From: Actinotignum schaalii FB123-CNA-2
Lineage (GTDB): Bacteria > Actinomycetota > Actinomycetes > Actinomycetales > Actinomycetaceae
Length of the DNA stretch: 64,000 nt
Assembly: GCF_000411135.1 (NCBI RefSeq)
Contig: NZ_KE150262.1
Span: 238,419 to 302,418, forward strand
Direction: 5' to 3'
Shown: in pieces, positions 6,032 to 61,189 of the stretch
Layout of the letters: each line of letters starts with the position of its first letter
Numbering within the stretch: position 1 is the stretch's first letter
Made by a program: the position numbers and the translations under genes
Notes under the pieces: generated by a model
Database searches by the model: none
Told to the model about the DNA's origin: nothing
Seen by the model: the letters and a program-made list of their open reading frames with translations, nothing else

Positions 6032-7213
6032 TTAAGCACCCGAGGCAGGTTGCGGATAGGTAGCGAGCAGGTGCGCGGCCGACTGGGCTGCAAAGTTTTT
6101 CCCTTGGTACGATTCCTCCCCCTGGTAGATAACCGCGCGATTTTCGGCCGGGATTCCCAGGAAGTCACCGATCTGGGAAAGCTGATGACCGAATTTATCG
6201 CGCATCGTCATCGAGGATTTAATCTCAAAAATGCGCGGGTTACTGCGCACAGTGAGATCAAGGAGATCAACCTCGCGCTTGGAGTCATCACGATAAAAAT
6301 AGAGCTCCGGTTCCGTTCCCGTGTGGAGATATTGTTTCCGCATCTCCGCGATCACAAAATTCTCGAATACCGCCCCGCGTTTCGGATGGGTGAGAAGTTC
6401 AGCAGCACTTGGGATCCCCAGAAGATGGCACAGCAAACCCGAATCGTAAAAGTACAGCTTCGGAGTCTTCGTCACTCGTTTCGCACCGCTGGACATATAC
6501 GGCTGCAGCGTAAACGTGATGTAAGAGGAGTTGAGAATCGATGCCCACTCTTTGACGGTCCGATAGGTGGAGCTGATAGCGCGCGCCAAGCCACTGTAGT
6601 TAATGAGGCTTCCGCTCGACTCTGCACACAATCGCAAGAAAGCACGGAATGCGTCAATATTTCGGACACCGAGATAATCCGCGACATCTCTTTCAAGGTA
6701 AGTCCGCACGTAATTAGGCATAAAAACGTGGGCCGGAATACCAGCGCCATAAATACGCGGATATCCTCCGGCAACTTGCGCTTCACTGAGTGTGGGCACA
6801 GGATCAAGTGCTTGAAGTTCTTGCCAGCTCAAGGGGAGTAGCTGAAGCATTCCAACCCTGCCGGCCAAGGATTGGCGAATGCTCCGCAGCAGCGAAAAGT
6901 TTTGTGAACCGGTCAAAATGTACTGCCCCGCCTCACCACGCTCGTCTGATCGCACCTGAATGGTAGAAAAAAGATCCGGAGCATATTGCGCCTCATCAAC
7001 GATAAGCGGCGCGGGGTGCGCGGCAAGAAAACCAACTGGATCCTGGGTAGCTGCCGCACGGAGATTCGGATTTTCGAGGTTGACGTATTCATACGTGGGA
7101 AAAGCCGTCCGAACCAGGGTTGATTTCCCGCTCTGGCGCGGGCCGGTAACGAAAACCACCGGAAACCACTGCGCCAATTGTGCAATATAACCACTCGCGC
7201 TGCGAGGAATCAC
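6032..7213 (-). CDS. AAA-type ATPase with DUF4143
   Basis: About 393 residues from GTG 7213 (GGGAGAGGG upstream); ATG 7234 is an alternative. The AAA_14 domain has Walker A GPRQSGKST, Walker B-like PLIVDEAQY, and sensor ILTGSQNF near LAGRVGMLQLLPLSWQEL. The C-terminal half is DUF4143, a restriction-nuclease-like fold: RTYLERDVADYLG, KLYFYDSGLLCHLLG, FENFVIAEMRKQ, LYFYRDDSKREVDLL. The acidic and Lys residues in VDLL and IFEIKSS look nuclease-like. The cellular role of this large family (COG1373) is not established. The gene stands alone and is preceded by an array of 23-bp repeats (7251-7359). Confidence 0.8.
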   Translation of the reverse strand: MIPRSASGYIAQLAQWFPVVFVTGPRQSGKSTLVRTAFPTYEYVNLENPNLRAAATQDPVGFLAAHPAPLIVDEAQYAPDLFSTIQVRSDERGEAGQYILTGSQNFSLLRSIRQSLAGRVGMLQLLPLSWQELQALDPVPTLSEAQVAGGYPRIYGAGIPAHVFMPNYVRTYLERDVADYLGVRNIDAFRAFLRLCAESSGSLINYSGLARAISSTYRTVKEWASILNSSYITFTLQPYMSSGAKRVTKTPKLYFYDSGLLCHLLGIPSAAELLTHPKRGAVFENFVIAEMRKQYLHTGTEPELYFYRDDSKREVDLLDLTVRSNPRIFEIKSSMTMRDKFGHQLSQIGDFLGIPAENRAVIYQGEESYQGKNFAAQSAAHLLATYPQPASGA

Positions 7214-7250: not shown

Positions 7251-7359
7251 CCGCATATCTGCACCAGACCCCACCAGATCATTGCAGTAGGACCGACCAA
7301 ATCATTGCAGTAGAATCGTCCAAATCATTGCAGTAGGAACTCGCAAATCGGCACAATAG
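7251..7359 (-). repeat. Array of 23-bp direct repeats upstream of DUF4143 ATPase
   Basis: On the minus strand, CTACTGCAATGATTTGG occurs at 7336-7320 and 7313-7297, and once with one change (GATCTGG) at 7290-7274. The copies are exactly 23 bp apart, with six variable bases between them. Degenerate flanking units occupy 7359-7343 and 7267-7251 in the same register. The array ends about 40-60 bases before the ATPase start and reads in the same direction as the gene. The 23-bp period is not a multiple of three, so it is not a coding repeat. Confidence 0.85.
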
Positions 7360-33920: not shown

Positions 33921-36824
33921 GTGACCTCTTTTCGTAAAATAGCGGGTGCCACACTCGCGGCCACCCTTATATTCTTCGGCGGCACTCCCGCGCTCGCCGA
34001 TCCAGCCTCCCCCGCGGGAGCTCCAAGCTCCGAACAAGCCAACTCCGCGAAGTTCGGCGGCGCCATCGCCAAAAACTTCTTCCTGGTCGATGGACTGACC
34101 GAGGCTGAGGTGATTGCCTCCGTCAAGGCTCAGCTCACTAAGAACGGCCTCAATCCTGACGAGTATGACTTCACGGTCAAGAACCTCAGCGAGGCCAACG
34201 CTAACTCGTACGGCCCGAAGCGTAAAGATCGCGTTAAGGAAGTACCGGTTACCGTAGCCAAGAAGGGGACTCCGGACACCTTTGAAACCTACAACGTCAA
34301 GGTTTTCTACTACGCTCCGCCGTTCGCGTTCCGGGAGGAAAACCCGGATCCCGAAAAGGGCGCACCTCAAAACCACAGCACCCATAACGCGGGCAAAGTA
34401 ACTGTTGCCGACCCGAATAGCTACACCCTGTCCGCGGATCAGCAGGCAAAGATCGTTGACGCATTCCTGAAGAACAACCCCGCTCTCGGTCTCACCCGTG
34501 ATCAGATCACCGTGGATGATCAAGGAAAGCTCACTATTGCGAACAAAGCCGGTGAAGACGAGTTTAGCGTCGTTGTTCCTAGCACCGAATCCGTGAGCGT
34601 TATTGGGGAAGTTCCCAATATTCTGGTCTTCTTGGATCCTTCCACTAACACGGATCCGAAAAAACTGAAGTCCACGCCCATCCCACCCGTAACTGTCACC
34701 CTCAAGACTGACGACTACAGCAAGGGTAAGCTTTGGGGAACTAATGCTCCGGGCCAAGGTGAGAACTGGCTTGCCGCAAAACAGCTCACAGGCTTCGACT
34801 TCAAGCTGGCCGGCAATACCGCTATCATTTCCGGCCAGTACGATGCCGGGCAATCAAATACTATTGGCGGTAAGCGTTTCATTGGTGTTCGCACCGATGC
34901 CTCAGGCGATAAGCGCTACACCCAATCTTTCTCCAACTTGTTTAAGGTACGCGTCATCCCCACAAAGGAGGAGACGCTTATCCGCAGCTTGGATACCGAT
35001 GAGCCCTTCACTCCCGATGACGTGAAAGGCCTTATCGGCGTGGATTACAACAAGCTCGGAATTCTCAAGTACGGCGACGACGCGGGAGTTTCTAAGCAGG
35101 ACGTCCACAACGAGGTCAAGGGCAAGATCACCAAGGACATCACGGTTGATCGCATGACCCACGATCCCGGTACCCAGACGTTCACCGGCACTCTGAAAAC
35201 CGATCTCGGCGCGGTCTCCCCGAAGCTCACCGCGACCATCATTTACTACACTGCCCGTATCTCCGAAACCACGGTGTCCGACCCGAACAACCTCACCCCT
35301 GGCGAACAGGCAGCTATCGAGAAGAAGACCCGGGAGCTCAACCAGCTCAAGGACACGGACAAAGTCACCGTGGACAAGGAAGGCAATGTCACGATTGTCT
35401 TCAACCGTAACGGCAAGGACCTCGGCACCAAGACCTTCAAGGCGCCGACGGTGAAGCCTTCTTACCCGGATTCGAGCGGAAAGTCCGGTTCCACGGTTGA
35501 AGTTCCGATCTCCACTCCGGAAGACTTTACTTTCCCGGACGGCTCTACATTTAAGATCGACGGCGATGCTCCTGCTGGTCTCACCGTTGGCAATGACGGC
35601 AAGATTACCTACCAAATCCCCGAGGATAAGGAGACCGGCGACGTGACGGGCACTGTGCTCGTGACGATCCCCGGGCAGCCCGATCCAGTGAAGGTTCCCT
35701 TCAAGATTGCCGTTACCAAGCCAAAGATGGCCGAGAAGATCAAGATCAACGACCCCGAAATCACCGGCGTTGTCGATCCGAACAACCTCACCCCTGAGGA
35801 ACAGGAACAAGTCAAGAAGGCCGTCGAAAAGAAGAACCCGGATCTTCCGAAGGGCACCACGATCACCGTCTCCGAAAACGGCACGGTCACAGTGACCTTC
35901 CCGGATGATTCCACGACGCAGATCCCTGCTGAGAAGACGGTTCGTCAGCTCAAGGACAACGAGAAGATCAAGATCAACGACCCCGAAATCACCGGCGTTG
36001 TCGATCCGAACAACCTCACCCCTGAGGAACAGGACCAGGTCAAGGACAAGGTCAAGAAGGCCAACCCGGATCTCCCGGAGAACACCCAGGTAACCGTCGG
36101 CAAGGACGGCACCGTCACCGTCACCTTCCCCGACGGCTCCGAAACCCAAATCCCAGCCGACAAGACCGTCCGTCAGCTCAAGGACAACGAGAAGATCAAG
36201 ATCAACGACCCCGAAATCACCGGCGTTGTCGATCCGAACAACCTCACCCCTGAGGAACAGGACCAGGTCAAGGACAAGGTCAAGAAGGCCAACCCGGATC
36301 TCCCGGAGAACACCCAGGTAACCGTCGGCAAGGACGGCACCGTCACCGTCACCTTCCCCGACGGCTCCGAAACCCAAATCCCAGCCGACAAGACCGTCCG
36401 TCAGCTCAAGGACAACGAGAAGATCACCCTCAATGACCCTGAGCTCACCGGCGTGGTTGACCCGAACAACCTCACGCCTGAAGAGCAGGAGCAGGTCAAG
36501 GACAAGGTCAAGAAGGCCAACCCGGATCTCCCGGAGAACACCCAGGTGACTGTTGGTAAGGACGGCACCGTGACCGTTACCTTCCCCGATGGCTCCACGA
36601 GCCAAATCCCGGCGGAGAAGACCGTCAAGCTCCTCACCCCGGCCGATAACGGCGATGCCGACAAGGGCAATAAGGGTGACAAGCCGGACGCTTCCAAGCC
36701 CACCAAGGTCAAGAAGGTCAAGAAGCTGCAGCACACCGGTGCTGATGTGACGCTTGAGCTCTTGGCCGCGGCCGCCGCGGTGGCTGCCGGTGGTGCCCTG
36801 GCTGCTGGGCGTCGTCGCCGCTAA
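33921..36824 (+). CDS. Repeat surface protein with LQHTG sorting signal
   Basis: 967 residues from GTG 33921. Signal peptide: MTSFRKIAGATLAATLIFF to ALA (about residue 27). The N-terminal 470 residues are non-repetitive beta-rich domains that share pieces such as DPNNLTPGEQAAI with the repeats. A Rib-like domain of YPDSSGKSGSTVEVPISTP type follows (about 515-600). Then come four repeats of 76 residues (NDPEITGVVDPNNLTPEEQ, then TVTFPDGSETQIP). The end is a Lys/Asp spacer, the sorting motif LQHTG, a hydrophobic stretch and RRRR. It is probably attached to peptidoglycan by a sortase not seen in this window. Role as adhesin is inferred from architecture. Confidence 0.8.
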   Translation: MTSFRKIAGATLAATLIFFGGTPALADPASPAGAPSSEQANSAKFGGAIAKNFFLVDGLTEAEVIASVKAQLTKNGLNPDEYDFTVKNLSEANANSYGPKRKDRVKEVPVTVAKKGTPDTFETYNVKVFYYAPPFAFREENPDPEKGAPQNHSTHNAGKVTVADPNSYTLSADQQAKIVDAFLKNNPALGLTRDQITVDDQGKLTIANKAGEDEFSVVVPSTESVSVIGEVPNILVFLDPSTNTDPKKLKSTPIPPVTVTLKTDDYSKGKLWGTNAPGQGENWLAAKQLTGFDFKLAGNTAIISGQYDAGQSNTIGGKRFIGVRTDASGDKRYTQSFSNLFKVRVIPTKEETLIRSLDTDEPFTPDDVKGLIGVDYNKLGILKYGDDAGVSKQDVHNEVKGKITKDITVDRMTHDPGTQTFTGTLKTDLGAVSPKLTATIIYYTARISETTVSDPNNLTPGEQAAIEKKTRELNQLKDTDKVTVDKEGNVTIVFNRNGKDLGTKTFKAPTVKPSYPDSSGKSGSTVEVPISTPEDFTFPDGSTFKIDGDAPAGLTVGNDGKITYQIPEDKETGDVTGTVLVTIPGQPDPVKVPFKIAVTKPKMAEKIKINDPEITGVVDPNNLTPEEQEQVKKAVEKKNPDLPKGTTITVSENGTVTVTFPDDSTTQIPAEKTVRQLKDNEKIKINDPEITGVVDPNNLTPEEQDQVKDKVKKANPDLPENTQVTVGKDGTVTVTFPDGSETQIPADKTVRQLKDNEKIKINDPEITGVVDPNNLTPEEQDQVKDKVKKANPDLPENTQVTVGKDGTVTVTFPDGSETQIPADKTVRQLKDNEKITLNDPELTGVVDPNNLTPEEQEQVKDKVKKANPDLPENTQVTVGKDGTVTVTFPDGSTSQIPAEKTVKLLTPADNGDADKGNKGDKPDASKPTKVKKVKKLQHTGADVTLELLAAAAAVAAGGALAAGRRRR
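35730..36641 (+). repeat. Four 228-bp tandem coding repeats
   Basis: Units begin at about 35730, 35958, 36186 and 36414, a 228-bp period (76 residues). The second and third units look identical base for base over the full unit, while the first and fourth have diverged. Such identity implies recent unequal exchange and possible copy-number variation of the surface protein. Confidence 0.9.
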
Positions 36825-46790: not shown

Positions 46791-46807
46791 GCCGTCGTCG
46801 TACCTTT

Positions 46808-46856
46808 AAATGGCGAGAATCCGAGTGAGAGTAAATGGCGAGAATCCGAGTGAGAG
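46808..46856 (+). repeat. Tandem duplication, 25-bp period, upstream of codB
   Basis: A 24-base sequence starting AAATGGCGAGAATCCGAG occurs at 46808-46831 and again, unchanged, at 46833-46856. It lies about 110 bases before the cytosine permease and could be an operator pair or a recent slippage product. Confidence 0.8.
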
Positions 46857-55828: not shown

Positions 55829-57641
55829 GACCTCTGACTCCACGAATACCTACGGCGGGCACTCGCACACCGGGCGTTTTTCCGATCCGCTCCTGGTGCA
55901 CGCCTACGGCTCCGTCCTCACCGAGGAAGGCCACGGCTACTATCGCCGCTCCATTGCCTTGGTTATCCTCTCCGGGATGATCGAAGGGCTCGCGCTCCTC
56001 ACCGTGGTGCCCCTGGCGCTGACCTGGTCCACCGGCACCCCGACCCTCGGGCTCGGCGTGGGCGGCTGGATCAGCGTGCTCGCCGCGCTCGCGGTCACCG
56101 GTCTGCTCACCGCTTACGTTCAGGCGGTGATGGCCTATACGGCCGCCATGGACGTGATCCGCCACAGTCTCAGCCTGCTGGGCGACCAACTCTCCCGCCT
56201 GCCGCTGGGCTGGTTCCGCTCCGGTTGGGCCGGCACGCTCTCCCGCCTGGTCACCGACGGGCTCATGGCTATCGGCCAGGGCATCGCCCATTTCACCACC
56301 CCGATTATCCGCAACGCCACCGCAGCGCTGGTGCTGCTGGGGGGCATGTGGATCTGGCAGTGGCAACTGGGGCTTGCACTCACGGTTGCGTTCCCGCTGC
56401 TGTGCGCGTTGGCCGCCGCGGCCCGGGTATTACGACGCCGCTCCGAACTGGCCACCAGCGCCACCGAAAGCGATCTGGCGGATCGGATTGTGGAATACGC
56501 CCGGTGCCAGCCCATCCTGCGGGCCACTGGCCAGGCCGCTACCTTCGCGCCGCTCCAGGCTGCGGTTCGGGCGAACCTCGCTGCCCAGCGCCGTTCGCTG
56601 TGGCTGGGGATCGCCGCGAACTTGCTCTCCGGGGTGGGTGCGCAGCTGCTGGTGGTGAGCCTTATCGCGCTGGCGGTGCGTCTATGCACGGGTGGGCTGC
56701 TCAACCCGGCGGCCACCCTCGCTTTCCTCGGGGTGGCGCTGCGTTTCATGCGGAATCTGGAGGATTTCACCTCCTTCGTTATGGCAACGGAAGTGGCTCG
56801 CACTCCGCTTGACTCCATGCGCGAGGTGCTCGATGCACCTGTCCCGAGCGAGCCGGCCAGCGACGTCGCCCTTCCCACGCCCGGCGAAGTTGCCCTCACG
56901 GACGTTCGTTTCGGGTACCGCGCCGATACCCCGGTGCTGGACGGCGTGAGCTTCACGGCCCGCCCGGGCACCCTCACCGCGATTGTGGGACCCTCCGGAG
57001 CCGGTAAATCCACCCTGTTCCGCCTCATGTGCCGGTTCTGGGACGTAGAAGGCGGCAGCGTGAAAATTGGCGGGGTGGATGTGCGTGATCAAACGACGGC
57101 GCAGCTCATGGCGCAACTGTCCATGGTGTTCCAGGATGTTTATCTTTACGACGACACCCTCGAAGCGAATATTCGGGTGGGCCGCGAAGGCGCCACTGAT
57201 GCCGAAGTGCGAGCGGCGGCGGATATGGCCGGCGTGAGCGATATTGCCGCGCGGTTGCCCGATGGCTGGGAAAGCCCTGTCGGCGAACGCGGCGGGATGC
57301 TTTCTGGTGGGGAACGCCAGCGGGTGTCCATCGCGCGGGCGCTCCTCAAACACGCTCCCATCGTACTTTTCGATGAGGCCACCTCGGCCCTCGATCCGGA
57401 AAATACCGCCGCTATCCGGGCCTGCATTCAGCAGCTGCGCCGGGAGGCAACGGTGCTGGTAATTGCCCATAAGCTGGAAACGGTGCAGGGTGCGGACCAG
57501 ATCGTGGTGCTCGACGCGGGCGGTACCGTGCGGGAAGTGGGCACCCACGCACAGTTGCTGGAAAGCGGCGGACTGTACCGGAAATTCTGGGAGGATCGAC
57601 GGCGCGCGGCCGGCTGGCAGCTGGGCGCCCCAGCGGAGTAA
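55821..57641 (+). CDS. ABC transporter, exporter fold, IrtB/YbtQ-like
   Basis: 606 residues, starting eight bases inside the end of its partner gene. Six helices (about 40-330), then an ATPase with GPSGAGKSTLFRLMCRF, LSGGERQRVSIARALL, VLFDEATSALDP and VIAHKLETV. Both nucleotide sites of the pair look usable; the canonical Walker B and D-loop here complement the altered D-loop of the partner. Iron-regulated siderophore uptake is inferred from the IrtAB/YbtPQ resemblance and the iron box. A drug or peptide exporter remains possible. Word with AGCTC extension at 57093-57102. Confidence 0.8.
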   Translation: MPKTSDSTNTYGGHSHTGRFSDPLLVHAYGSVLTEEGHGYYRRSIALVILSGMIEGLALLTVVPLALTWSTGTPTLGLGVGGWISVLAALAVTGLLTAYVQAVMAYTAAMDVIRHSLSLLGDQLSRLPLGWFRSGWAGTLSRLVTDGLMAIGQGIAHFTTPIIRNATAALVLLGGMWIWQWQLGLALTVAFPLLCALAAAARVLRRRSELATSATESDLADRIVEYARCQPILRATGQAATFAPLQAAVRANLAAQRRSLWLGIAANLLSGVGAQLLVVSLIALAVRLCTGGLLNPAATLAFLGVALRFMRNLEDFTSFVMATEVARTPLDSMREVLDAPVPSEPASDVALPTPGEVALTDVRFGYRADTPVLDGVSFTARPGTLTAIVGPSGAGKSTLFRLMCRFWDVEGGSVKIGGVDVRDQTTAQLMAQLSMVFQDVYLYDDTLEANIRVGREGATDAEVRAAADMAGVSDIAARLPDGWESPVGERGGMLSGGERQRVSIARALLKHAPIVLFDEATSALDPENTAAIRACIQQLRREATVLVIAHKLETVQGADQIVVLDAGGTVREVGTHAQLLESGGLYRKFWEDRRRAAGWQLGAPAE

Positions 57642-57722
57642 CGCTGACTAACCCGGGCGCGAAGCCCGCAGCCAGGCGGCACGGAACCTTGCCACCTGGC
57701 TGCGGGCCCGCGGACCTGAATC

Positions 57723-57808
57723 CTACATTTTGCAACGTAGAGAACCTACAAATTGCAACGTAACAGCCCTACATTTTGCAACGTAAGCACTCTACATTTT
57801 GTAACGCA
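57723..57808 (+). repeat. Second array of 23-bp repeats
   Basis: CTACATTTTGCAACGTA at 57723-57739 and 57769-57785, CTACAAATTGCAACGTA at 57746-57762, and CTACATTTTGTAACGCA at 57792-57808. The spacing is exactly 23 bp, with six variable bases between units. Its design equals that of the array at 7251-7359, with a different core sequence. A DUF4143 ATPase remnant follows. Confidence 0.85.
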
Positions 57809-57836
57809 ACCTCTAAACTGAGGATATGGACACTGA

Positions 57837-57944
57837 AATTGTCGCGGCGAACCCGCTTTCCTCGCTGTTATCACCGGCACGGGAATAACCGGGCCCGCTG
57901 GCGAGGGCGTGATCACTTTCCCGCTCAGTGCGCTGGGCCAGTAG
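57837..57944 (+). pseudogene. Relic of a DUF4143 ATPase C-terminus
   Basis: The frame ending at TAG 57942-57944 reads RGEPAFLAVITGTG, then GEGVITFPLSALGQ. This is the usual tail of AAA/DUF4143 ATPases, which end in a strand followed by a short PLSALG-type motif. Only about 35 residues survive. A start-like ATG (57826) after the repeat array leads into another frame that stops after 20 residues, so the gene has been deleted internally. Array plus ATPase is the same order as at 6032-7359. Confidence 0.6.
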
Positions 57945-58042
57945 CTCCCACCCCGCTTCTCCGCAGCACCGAGCCCCCACGCATACTCATACCAACCCCC
58001 GGATTTTCAAGCATTGACAAGGATTTTCACGCCACATAACTG

Positions 58043-58089
58043 TTGACACCCCGCGCTCCACTTCATAAAGTTAGGGCCACCTAACCACT
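58043..58089 (+). promoter_or_regulatory. Promoter with DtxR-like box for siderophore importer
   Basis: TTGACA (58043-58048), a 17-base spacer and TAAAGT (58066-58071) form a good promoter. TTAGGGCCACCTAACCACT (58071-58089) starts at the -10 and matches about 12 of 19 iron-box positions, with clean TTAGG/CCTAA arms. Repression by iron-loaded DtxR would block initiation. Confidence 0.6.
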
Positions 58090-58136
58090 AGGTCGGGAGC
58101 CGGTTTCACGCCCCGGCCGCTAACAAAGGAGCATTG

Positions 58137-59291
58137 GTGAAACGCCGTGTCATGACCGTTGCCTTGAGCGCGCTGTGCGCCGGGTTGCTGGCGAGCTGTT
58201 CCGCATCGTCCACCTCTACTGAATCACCTACCAGTTCGAGCGGTGCCAGCGCAGCTGCGTCGTCGGCCTCACCTGCCGCGAACGATGCCGCAAGCGGACC
58301 ACTCACCGTAACCGATCAGCGCGGCCACCAGGTGGAAGTCAACCGCCCCGTGCAAAAGATCGCTTCCGCGGTGATCCCCGCGCCCACCATTATTGCTGCG
58401 GTGGACGGGTCCTGGGATCGCATTGTTGGCATTAATGAATCGCTACTAGTCGCCAATAAGCAGGGCATTATTTCAAAGATTTTCCCGGCCTCGGTGACCA
58501 CCCCGGTGATTGCGGATCGCCAGTTCACCCCGAATATGGAAACTATCCTGGCGCAGGACCCCGACGTATTTATTCAGTGGGGTGACCGCAGCGAGGATCT
58601 TATTACGCCTATCGAGTCGGCCGGCATTCCGGTGCTCGGGCTCAAGTACGGCACCCAGGAAAACCTAGAAACCTGGATCAAGCTTTTCGGTGAAATCCTC
58701 GGCAAGGAAGATCGCGCCGCGCAGCTTATTGACTATATGCACAGCGAGCAGGATTCCATCTCCAAGCAGGTCGCGGCTTTGGGCAAGCCCAAGCCGCGCG
58801 GTTTGCAGCTGAGCTACTCGGCCGAAAAGATGTCCGCAAATACAGAGAAGAGCTACGGGCAGCACGTTTTTGACGTGGCCGGTATTCAAAATATGGCCAC
58901 CTCCGACGTGGTTCAGGACGGGATTGTCTCCCCGGAGCAGATCCTCGCCTGGGACCCGGAAATTATTTTCCTCTCCGCTTTTGATAAAGCCGTGCCTGAT
59001 GATCTGTACAACGATCCGCGCCTATCCGAGGTAAGTGCGATTAAGAATAAGCGTGTCTACCGCGCCCCGCTGGGGGTGTATCGCTGGCAGGTGCCCTGCG
59101 CCGAATCCCCGCTGTACTGGAATTACGTAGCGGCCCTCGCCTACCCGGGTGAGTTTAAGGTCGATATGCCCACGCTCATGCGCGAAAAGACGAAGTGGAT
59201 CTACAACTACGATCTCACCGACGAAGATATCGATCTGGTTCTGCGCACCGATATTAATAACGGCAGCGCCAATTATGACGTTGTTCGCTAA
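58137..59291 (+). CDS. Iron-siderophore-type ABC substrate-binding lipoprotein
   Basis: 384 residues from GTG 58137 (AAAGGAG upstream; TTG 58134 is too close). Lipobox LLASC gives a lipidated Cys near residue 20, followed by a Ser/Ala linker. The class III (BtuF/FecB) fold is seen in TVTDQRGHQVEVNRPVQKIAS, LAQDPDVFIQWGDRSEDLI and ILAWDPEIIFLSAFDKAVPDD. It would bind a ferric siderophore, heme or cobalamin; the DtxR-like promoter favours iron. The coding end overlaps the permease gene by 17 bases. Confidence 0.85.
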   Translation: MKRRVMTVALSALCAGLLASCSASSTSTESPTSSSGASAAASSASPAANDAASGPLTVTDQRGHQVEVNRPVQKIASAVIPAPTIIAAVDGSWDRIVGINESLLVANKQGIISKIFPASVTTPVIADRQFTPNMETILAQDPDVFIQWGDRSEDLITPIESAGIPVLGLKYGTQENLETWIKLFGEILGKEDRAAQLIDYMHSEQDSISKQVAALGKPKPRGLQLSYSAEKMSANTEKSYGQHVFDVAGIQNMATSDVVQDGIVSPEQILAWDPEIIFLSAFDKAVPDDLYNDPRLSEVSAIKNKRVYRAPLGVYRWQVPCAESPLYWNYVAALAYPGEFKVDMPTLMREKTKWIYNYDLTDEDIDLVLRTDINNGSANYDVVR

Positions 59292-60396
59292 GCCCGCCAA
59301 GCCCGCAACTTCCGCGCAAGCTGCCCGCGCCAGCGCGGCGCCGGGAGAGGTCAGCACGCCTACCAAGGCCGTCAGCACCATCGCCCGGCGCCGCACCGCG
59401 GCCTTCGCGGTGCTCGTCATCACCACCATCGCGCTGCTCGGCGCGATGGTGGTGGCGATGGGCATGGGTCAGCTCTCCATTAGCGCTCCGGACGTGGTGC
59501 GTATTCTCTTCTCGAGTCCGGACGATGTGGATCGCTCGGCCCTCGTGGCTATTAACCAAATTCGAGCCCCGCGAGTCATTCTTGCCGTCGTGCTCGGCGG
59601 TTGCCTGGCTGTTTCCGGCGCGGTGCTCCAGTCCCTGTTCCGCAACCCGCTGGTCTCGCCCGATATCGTGGGGGTTTCCTCCGCGGCTGCGTTCGGCGGG
59701 GTGCTGGCGATTCTGGTGGGCACCTCAAGCTTCATCCTCATGGGATCCACCTTCATTTTCGGGCTTTCCGCGGTGGTCTGCGTGATGCTCATCGGGCGGA
59801 TCCGTTCCCATTCGGCCACGCTCACTATCGTGCTGGCCGGCGTGGTGGTTTCCGCGTTCTTCAACGCCATGGTTTCCCTCATGACCTACGTGGCCGACCC
59901 GTACAGTAAACTCCCCTCGATTACCTTCTGGCTCATGGGCTCACTAGCTGCGGCGTCGTGGGCAAAAGTCACCACCATTATTATTCCCGTCATTATTGGG
60001 CTTATCGTGGTGGTGGCGCTGCGCTGGCGTATTAATGTGCTCTCGCTGGGCGATGAGGATGCCCGGGCTCTCGGTATTAATCCGAGTGCGATGCGCTGGG
60101 TGTGTATTTTCGCCGTCGCCCTCCTTACCGCAGCTTCGGTGGCAGCCGCCGGAATCATTGGCTGGGTGGGCCTGGTGATCCCGCATCTGGTGCGCCTGCT
60201 GGTCGGGCACGATAATCGCGTGGTTATCCCGGAATCTTTCCTCATGGGCGGGATGTATCTCCTCATTATTGACACAATTGCGCGCAATGCGACCTCGGTG
60301 GAAATACCGGTGGGAATTTTGACCGCCACGATCGGCGCCCCGGTATTTATCGGGTTGCTCATTCGGCGCGCGCGAAAGGGGCGGGCTCTTGCTTAA
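59275..60396 (+). CDS. FecCD-type ABC permease
   Basis: 373 residues from ATG 59275; the longer frame upstream is the shadow of the binding-protein gene. A 45-residue polar N-terminus precedes about ten transmembrane helices. BtuC/FecCD family marks: IRAPRVILAVVLGGCLAVSGAVLQSLFRNPLVSPDIVGVSS, FWLMGSLAAASW, and GIIGWVGLVIPHLVRLLVGHDNR (contact with the ATPase). Word with the full AGCT extension at 59950-59959. Overlaps its ATPase by eight bases. Confidence 0.9.
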   Translation: MTLFAKPAKPATSAQAARASAAPGEVSTPTKAVSTIARRRTAAFAVLVITTIALLGAMVVAMGMGQLSISAPDVVRILFSSPDDVDRSALVAINQIRAPRVILAVVLGGCLAVSGAVLQSLFRNPLVSPDIVGVSSAAAFGGVLAILVGTSSFILMGSTFIFGLSAVVCVMLIGRIRSHSATLTIVLAGVVVSAFFNAMVSLMTYVADPYSKLPSITFWLMGSLAAASWAKVTTIIIPVIIGLIVVVALRWRINVLSLGDEDARALGINPSAMRWVCIFAVALLTAASVAAAGIIGWVGLVIPHLVRLLVGHDNRVVIPESFLMGGMYLLIIDTIARNATSVEIPVGILTATIGAPVFIGLLIRRARKGRALA

Positions 60397-61189
60397 GGCA
60401 GAAAATCTTGGGCACCACTATCGCGGCGGGCCGTGGCTGTTCCGCGGGGTGGAGCTGGAGGCCCACCCCGGCGAAGTACTCACGGTGCTCGGGCCGAATG
60501 CGCGCGGAAAAACCACCCTGCTGACCTGTTTGGCGGGAGTGCGCACCCCGGTGGAAGGCACCGTGCATTCGGACGGGCCCATCGGCTACGTGCCGCAATC
60601 CCACGCGGCAAACCACCAGTTCACCGTGCATGACATGGTCCTCATGGGTCGGGCCCGCACCATGCGAGTTTTCGCCAGCCCCTCGGCCGCCGATAGCGAG
60701 GCCGCGTGGGAGGCCCTCGAACGGGTGGGGATCGCGCACCTGGGCGGGGCTACGTACGCCGAGCTTTCCGGCGGGCAACGCCAGCTCACGCTCATTGCCC
60801 GCGCGCTGGTCGCCACCCCGAGCACTCTCATTTTGGACGAGCCGACATCCGCGCTGGACCTGCGCAATCAACGCCGTGTCCTCACAATTATTCGCACGCT
60901 CGCGGCCGAGGGCCTGGCCATTATTATGACCACGCACGATCCGGCGCACGCCTTCCTGACCTCGCGCACCACCCTCGTCATGGACGCTGACGACCTCTCC
61001 ATTGGCGCCACCGAACGCCAACTCACCGAAGCGCGGCTGAGCTCGCTTTACCGCACGCCGATTCGGGTTCGTGATGTTCCGGTTGACCGTGGCTCACAGT
61101 GCGTCGTCGTTCCGGATTTTAGTGCGAACGACGACGCCGCCCCTTCCGCTTCCACACCGCCCTCGCAAAGAAAGGACCACGATGGGTAA
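60389..61189 (+). CDS. FecE/FepC-type ABC ATPase
   Basis: 266 residues from TTG 60389. Walker A GPNARGKTTLLTCLAG, Q-loop YVPQSHAAN, signature LSGGQRQLTLIARALV, Walker B LILDEPTSALD and H-loop TTHDPAHA. The C-terminal 25 residues are a non-conserved tail (CVVVPDFSANDDAAPSAST). It is made largely of two inverted copies of the dispersed word (61101-61110 and 61128-61137). It energises the FecCD-type permease and overlaps the next gene by eight bases. Confidence 0.9.
   Translation: MLKAENLGHHYRGGPWLFRGVELEAHPGEVLTVLGPNARGKTTLLTCLAGVRTPVEGTVHSDGPIGYVPQSHAANHQFTVHDMVLMGRARTMRVFASPSAADSEAAWEALERVGIAHLGGATYAELSGGQRQLTLIARALVATPSTLILDEPTSALDLRNQRRVLTIIRTLAAEGLAIIMTTHDPAHAFLTSRTTLVMDADDLSIGATERQLTEARLSSLYRTPIRVRDVPVDRGSQCVVVPDFSANDDAAPSASTPPSQRKDHDG
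61101..61137. other. Inverted pair of the dispersed word at gene end
   Basis: GCGTCGTCGTTC (61101-61112) and GAACGACGACGC (61126-61137) are a perfect 12-bp inverted repeat with a 13-base loop. They lie within the last 30 codons of the ATPase gene and before the next start. The RNA hairpin could modulate downstream expression. Confidence 0.7.

Follow-up and report, generated by a model that had tools for sequence, protein, structure and literature searches.

DUF4143 ATPase genes in Actinotignum schaalii FB123-CNA-2 and in many other genomes are preceded by tandem arrays of 22-23-bp units which sit at the predicted promoter of the gene, differ in core sequence between paralogues of the same genome, are inherited together with the gene and diverge along with the DUF4143 half of the encoded protein. 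Two of them lie in the 64,000-nucleotide stretch of DNA analysed here as a whole (hereafter the window), one in front of an intact ATPase gene and the other in front of a relic. We interpret the array as a private operator, which the ATPase would bind through its DUF4143 half and by which it would autoregulate, and most likely repress, its own gene. In the absence of binding or expression data, the probability of this interpretation is estimated at about 65%.

Two arrays and their ATPase genes

The first array (7251-7336, minus strand) has a period of 23 bp and comprises three clear units (7320-7336, 7297-7313 and 7274-7290) with the core CTACTGCAATGATTTGG, and a weak fourth one. It precedes an intact gene of the same strand (6032-7213), encoding a DUF4143 ATPase of 393 aa from a GTG at 7213, with an in-frame upstream ATG as a possible alternative start; the protein matches DUF4143 (PF13635, 150.2 bits) and AAA_14 (PF13173, 88 bits) above the curated Pfam cut-offs. 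The second array (57723-57808, plus strand) is composed of four 17-bp units (57723-57739, 57746-57762, 57769-57785 and 57792-57808) separated by 6-bp spacers, in the order CTACATTTTGCAACGTA / CTACAAATTGCAACGTA / CTACATTTTGCAACGTA / CTACATTTTGTAACGCA. As a previous sequence-only reading had stated, these units start exactly 23 bp apart, and its description of the two arrays as alike also holds, the first one having the same 23-bp step, CTAC start and orientation towards its ATPase gene. The 17-bp pattern of the second array occurs 4 times in the window for 0.52 expected, a number reached by 0 of 100 dinucleotide shuffles, and three to four of its units are kept at the orthologous locus of four genomes (G001, G003, G004 and G005).

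A 21-nt inverted repeat (57664-57707, 90% complementary) separates the second array from the ABC-transporter gene upstream of it and is probably the terminator of that gene, although this function is inferred; as such, it indicates that a new transcription unit begins with the array. A -10-like box, TAAACT, is located on the plus strand at 57814-57819, 5 bp past the last unit. Its use as a promoter is inferred, and the transcript would then start at or near the ATG at 57826 and be leaderless.

This ATG opens the remnant of a deleted ATPase gene (57826-57842, plus strand), reduced to the start codon and first codons (MDTEI...), and is followed at 57843-57944 by the leftover 3' end of the gene (RGEPAFLAVITGTGITGPAGEGVITFPLSALGQ and the stop), delineated by alignment to G003 and by the ends of the orthologues. 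The latter segment corresponds to the last 33 codons and the stop, in a different frame from the start at 57826. Compared with G003, 1150 bp are missing at 57842/57843, and a 5-bp microhomology, CGCGG, is present at both ends of the deletion. A search for relatives with 57640-58130 retrieved a matching locus in four genomes of the same genus, three of which (G001, G003 and G004) have an intact frame of 425 codons between the array and the downstream flank, thereby providing the sister strains with an intact gene that the sequence-only reading had proposed to look for. Their proteins end with ...FLAVITGTGITGPAGEGVITFPLSALGQ or a near-identical sequence; the relic tail is identical to the protein end of G003 and nearly so to those of G001 and G004, and the G003 DNA downstream of the locus is 97% identical to the window. 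The intact proteins tested (G003 and G001) score 99.7-101.5 bits with PF13635, for a cut-off of 28.1, and the intact orthologue with 99.7 bits to DUF4143 also reaches 37.7 bits with AAA_14, both values being above the curated cut-offs. Pfam membership is established for this orthologue, the relic itself being only a fragment: a Pfam search with its 27-residue tail alone gave no match, since the DUF4143 profile ends before that part, and the identity of what had been described as the decayed end of an ATPase is settled by orthology. In the fourth genome (G005:C46, L019), the orthologue of the deleted gene was damaged independently: it lacks the greater part of the N-terminal ATPase region as well as about 60 codons before GFIFES, while the array units were kept. 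The gene has thus been lost repeatedly.

Beyond the window, the same genome contains two more loci associating an array and an ATPase gene, one of them another relic. The second intact DUF4143 ATPase gene of the genome (L020, C1:434500-438500) has about two units (CGCAAGACTGATAATGA... and CCGCAATAGTGATAATG); its orthologues in other species have more, and its short array could possibly result from array erosion. At C3:45500-49500 (L021), two CGGTCCAACTTGCACAA units, 23 bp apart, precede a decayed DUF4143 ATPase gene with a large internal loss; in G001, G004 and G098, the arrays of its orthologues have the CGGTCCAACTTGCACAA core and are longer.

Other features of the window include a palindrome, TTAGGGCCACCTAA (58068-58087), which looks like a DtxR/IdeR-type iron box and is located upstream of a putative iron-siderophore operon (Peripla_BP_2 / FecCD / ABC, 58134-61189), a gene for a surface protein with Rib/aRib domains (33921-36824) containing four 228-bp repeats (35732-36626), and an exact 25-bp tandem duplication, TAAATGGCGAGAATCCGAGTGAGAG (46807-46856).

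Distribution and layout of the arrays

A genuine linked system had been proposed from the two cases of the window alone. This proposal is supported on a far broader basis, with 197 arrays among the 349 DUF4143 genes examined in an enlarged set. In a first sample from the same bacterial family, 81 of 99 DUF4143 genes displayed a periodic upstream stretch with a score of at least 15. The same threshold was met by none of 297 shuffles, and by 1 of 99 stretches taken inside genes, 5 of 99 taken downstream and 3 of 98 taken far upstream. A masked run of N (period 15) accounts for one of the 81 positives, and the periods otherwise found were 23 (62 genes), 22 (16) and 44 bp (2). The mean autocorrelation over all upstream regions peaks at lags 23, 46, 22 and 44, with lags 23 and 46 prominent even in low-scoring genes. 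Over the enlarged set, arrays of 22/23 bp were found just before the gene for 152 of 181 DUF4143 genes of the family (123/143 for the GCGKT type, 29/38 for the canonical type) and for 37 of the 60 from outside it but within the order, and at about 10% elsewhere (8/83 in other phyla, 3/25 in viral contigs); a separate phylum sample gave 3 of 27. The genes were drawn from the best-scoring matches, and these percentages hold for that sample. Since most DUF4143 genes outside the order have no detectable array, the protein family does not depend on having one.

Among the more distant cases, flavobacterial DUF4143 genes have arrays of TGTAATTTCAAAATT at an unchanged distance from the gene, and a similar array was found in Bifidobacterium (L131), from which, along with GC and gene content, an actinobacterial host can be inferred for the window. 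Upstream of six DUF4143 genes of the order, the period is 32-33 bp, close to three turns of the helix. Just upstream of some other DUF4143 genes (L405, L417 and L423), palindromes of similar size (TGGTTGA-TTTTC-AACCA type) were observed, without tandem arrays, which are perhaps another form of operator. DUF4143 genes are also strongly expanded in some fragmented genomes from the order but outside the family (for example G342, G381 and G413), where up to 40 candidate matches were counted in a single genome.

The number of units per array ranges from 2 to 12 and is mostly 3-5, and the arrays terminate near the start codon. The core is conserved within an array while about six positions vary, and most cores can be placed in register on a loose plan, CTGCAAA-N4-CG with TARAA-like spacers, the specific sequence being lineage-dependent. 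Ordinary variable tandem repeats, generated by slippage near a promoter and without any dedicated reader, would also range widely in copy number, here from 2 to 12, and differ in unit number between orthologous loci, as is observed. They would not, however, be expected to keep a period of 22-23 bp and a constant place and orientation relative to the gene across unrelated cores, to conserve cores while spacers vary, or to share a unit layout in most arrays, and this explanation appears scarcely tenable.

Position relative to the predicted promoter

A TANNNT motif is located 4-7 bp past the last core in 86 of the 197 arrays (44%), a 22-fold excess over background, which places the last unit in the -35 region. 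The arrays sit at the promoter of their ATPase gene and, as repeated sites overlapping the gene's own promoter, they satisfy the definition of an autoregulatory operator, with the reservation that this promoter is predicted and not mapped.

A -35 box was sought in the last unit, which proved no more -35-like than the other units, and no TTGACA-like -35 was found at the expected place when the promoters were aligned on the -10 box. This lack of any distinction between the last unit and the others leaves repression and activation indistinguishable on this ground. Both observations would suit an ATPase binding its array as an activator, with the last unit standing in for the -35 box in a positive autoregulation. 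A self-activating nuclease would nevertheless be risky to keep, and weak -35 boxes are frequent in actinobacterial promoters. Positive autoregulation is regarded as unlikely, but it deserves to be kept in mind. The sign of the regulation remains an inference, in which repression is more likely than activation from the position of the array and by analogy with the repressor RptR discussed below.

A layout with tandem repeats immediately in front of one gene also recalls that of toxIN, and transcription of the array could yield a repeat RNA acting, for instance, like the antitoxin RNA of type III (ToxIN-like) pairs. The second array indeed folds better than its shuffles (z of -3.3 on the plus strand and -4.2 on the minus strand), but the first one has no folding signal (z 0.1), and 62 representative arrays have a mean z of -0.65, with only 8 below -3. 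Lying upstream of the -10 box and ending at it, the array is moreover probably not transcribed with the gene. The Rfam search of the stretch returned no match at the gathering score, and only a sub-threshold one to mir-988, on the terminator hairpin. The arrays do not satisfy the definition of a type III toxin-antitoxin system, which requires transcription of a structured repeat RNA ahead of the gene, and a ToxIN-like RNA was rejected on the folding of the 62 arrays, their place relative to the -10-like box and the lack of a gathering-level Rfam match; a repeat RNA of any kind is considered very improbable.

Specificity of the cores and co-divergence with the protein

The cores follow the lineage of the ATPase, in agreement with the sequence-only reading, which had attributed to each lineage its own array and suggested comparing the cores with the phylogeny. 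None of 98 pairs of paralogues from the same genome share a core (similarity of at least 0.7), their mean similarity (0.39) being close to that of unrelated pairs (0.40), whereas 146 of 280 orthologue pairs (at least 70% identical) do, with a mean of 0.69. Neither of the two window cores has a further site with up to 2 mismatches elsewhere in the 2.09-Mb genome, and a regulon controlled in trans through these cores was rejected for want of such extra sites.

Over 80 phylogenetically independent pairs, the divergence of the core is explained by that of the DUF4143 half of the protein (t = 3.0) and not by that of the AAA half (t = 0.1). Within the DUF4143 half, the winged helix (t = 1.8) and the PD-(D/E)XK part (t = 2.6) both contribute; the effect of the half is weaker when pairs are limited to 50-85% identity (t = 1.9). 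The recognition helix was the best single window in scans over all pairs, and had been considered as the decisive site of covariation. This was softened by the broad residual correlations, which have an sd of 0.10 between unrelated protein windows used as a control, and by the signal of the independent pairs, for which the best windows are the wing and the PD-(D/E)XK (nuclease) hairpin; a scan within the canonical subtype alone was not significant. Given the weakening of the recognition-helix peak under phylogenetic control, the claim is limited to the DUF4143 half and does not extend to a single helix.

Privacy, the absence of the window cores elsewhere in the genome and the way in which cores diverge together with the DUF4143 half designate the ATPase as the likely reader of its own array, its binding being inferred. 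The promoter location of the arrays, their privacy within a genome and their link to the DUF4143 half were not part of the sequence-only reading. Support for binding and for altered transcription by the gene product is only indirect, resting on privacy and co-divergence. Control of the ATPases by separate host regulators, or by one unknown factor, binding the arrays has a precedent in an E. coli defence island controlled by the repressor RptR on direct-repeat operators (PMC12255303). With its own core for each paralogue, such a scheme would nonetheless demand one dedicated regulator per ATPase, and it accounts neither for the lack of the window cores elsewhere in the genome nor for a core divergence that tracks the ATPase's own DUF4143 half. 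We consider it improbable.

Predicted structure of the ATPase

The AlphaFold2 model of the window ATPase (mean pLDDT 95.2, pTM 0.93) shows an AAA+ core, a winged helix with a predicted recognition helix at residues 217-229, and a PD-(D/E)XK domain, as judged from secondary structure and conserved residues. The residues of the PD-(D/E)XK core are E284, D316 and E330-x-K332; across 64 homologues, D316 and K332 never vary and E284 and E330 hardly do. Nuclease activity is inferred. The equivalent residues in the ATPase type of the relic are E307, D337, E351 and K353, and in the G003 orthologue a K replaces the first glutamate of the core (FKS instead of FES).

A search by sequence for a close solved structure found none. 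The closest solved folds are 2qen (VIA Z 15.1) and 2fna (Z 14.8), followed by NB-ARC proteins, and Orc/Cdc6 structures are among the weak matches. The alignments with 2qen and 2fna span 242-245 residues, covering the ATPase and the winged helix, and stop near model residue 266, which leaves the PD-(D/E)XK domain outside the comparison. By the fold of its ATPase and winged-helix part, the protein qualifies as a STAND ATPase.

Comparison with known systems

The PADLOC profile PDC-S01 is matched by the window ATPase (E 6.6e-97) as well as by the relic's intact orthologue (E 1.8e-55), both of which fall in this family of AAA_14 + DUF4143 ATPases. The passages on PDC-S01 in its source describe it as a fusion of an ATPase with a PD-(D/E)XK domain that ranks fourth in frequency among prokaryotic defence candidates and lacks experimental validation (PMC12988326); unlike the arrays reported here, no promoter array, private operator or autoregulation is mentioned in these passages. 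The likeness to the RptR system lies in a defence locus placed under several direct repeats at its promoter (PMC12255303). RptR is, however, a separate small dimeric regulator of 9-bp repeats with a fixed TAGCTA palindrome (PMC12255303), whereas the present arrays have units of 22-23 bp and a core differing for each paralogue, and their reader is apparently the ATPase-nuclease itself.

The archaeal STAND-clade ATPases SSO1545 (PDB 2fna) and PABY2304 (PDB 2qen) have the same ATPase and winged-helix fold as the window ATPase. To our knowledge, no repeat array has been described for them. Iterons and initiator boxes, recognised by winged-helix or AAA+ initiators such as plasmid Rep proteins, DnaA or Orc1/Cdc6, are tandem two-turn units with an autoregulating DNA-binding reader. 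The DUF4143 arrays are similarly formed by tandem units of about two helical turns, but the window locus is a single chromosomal gene between transporter genes, with no indication of a replication function. In the open-access literature (subscription papers and preprints not included), we found no report of such arrays, DUF4143 appearing in a single paper and only in passing. Direct-repeat operators and iterons are known kinds of element; family-wide private arrays of 22-23 bp on nuclease-like STAND ATPases were not found in that literature.

Proposed mechanism and significance

In the private operator that we propose, the DUF4143 half of the ATPase would bind its own repeats, with one subunit or dimer per 22-23 bp. 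As this length is about two helical turns, the subunits could form an ordered row on the array, the last of them covering the -35 region, immediately before the -10 box. Autorepression would keep a potentially harmful nuclease-ATPase at a low level until a trigger, perhaps infection, removes the repression; both the trigger and any role in defence are inferred. A defence unit silent until triggered would fit the control of a nuclease-like STAND ATPase, and the different core of each paralogue would allow several such genes in one cell without cross-regulation.

The array might even be more than an operator and serve as a docking platform: in the uninfected cell, subunits of the ATPase-nuclease would assemble on it in an ordered row, and a change in this assembly would release or arm the nuclease. 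This change could come from competition by invading DNA, from loss of the promoter or from STAND nucleotide switching. If this rather doubtful possibility were true, private arrays would be self-identification tags for many parallel defence units of the same genome.

With regard to the private operator, the arrays concern a family which is among the most abundant predicted prokaryotic defence genes and has no known mechanism. They suggest which DNA is read by each protein, the DUF4143 half being indicated as the reader, and the about 200 natural protein-DNA pairs represent material for learning a recognition code. The privacy of the arrays would further account for the coexistence of ten or more such genes in one genome without cross-talk.
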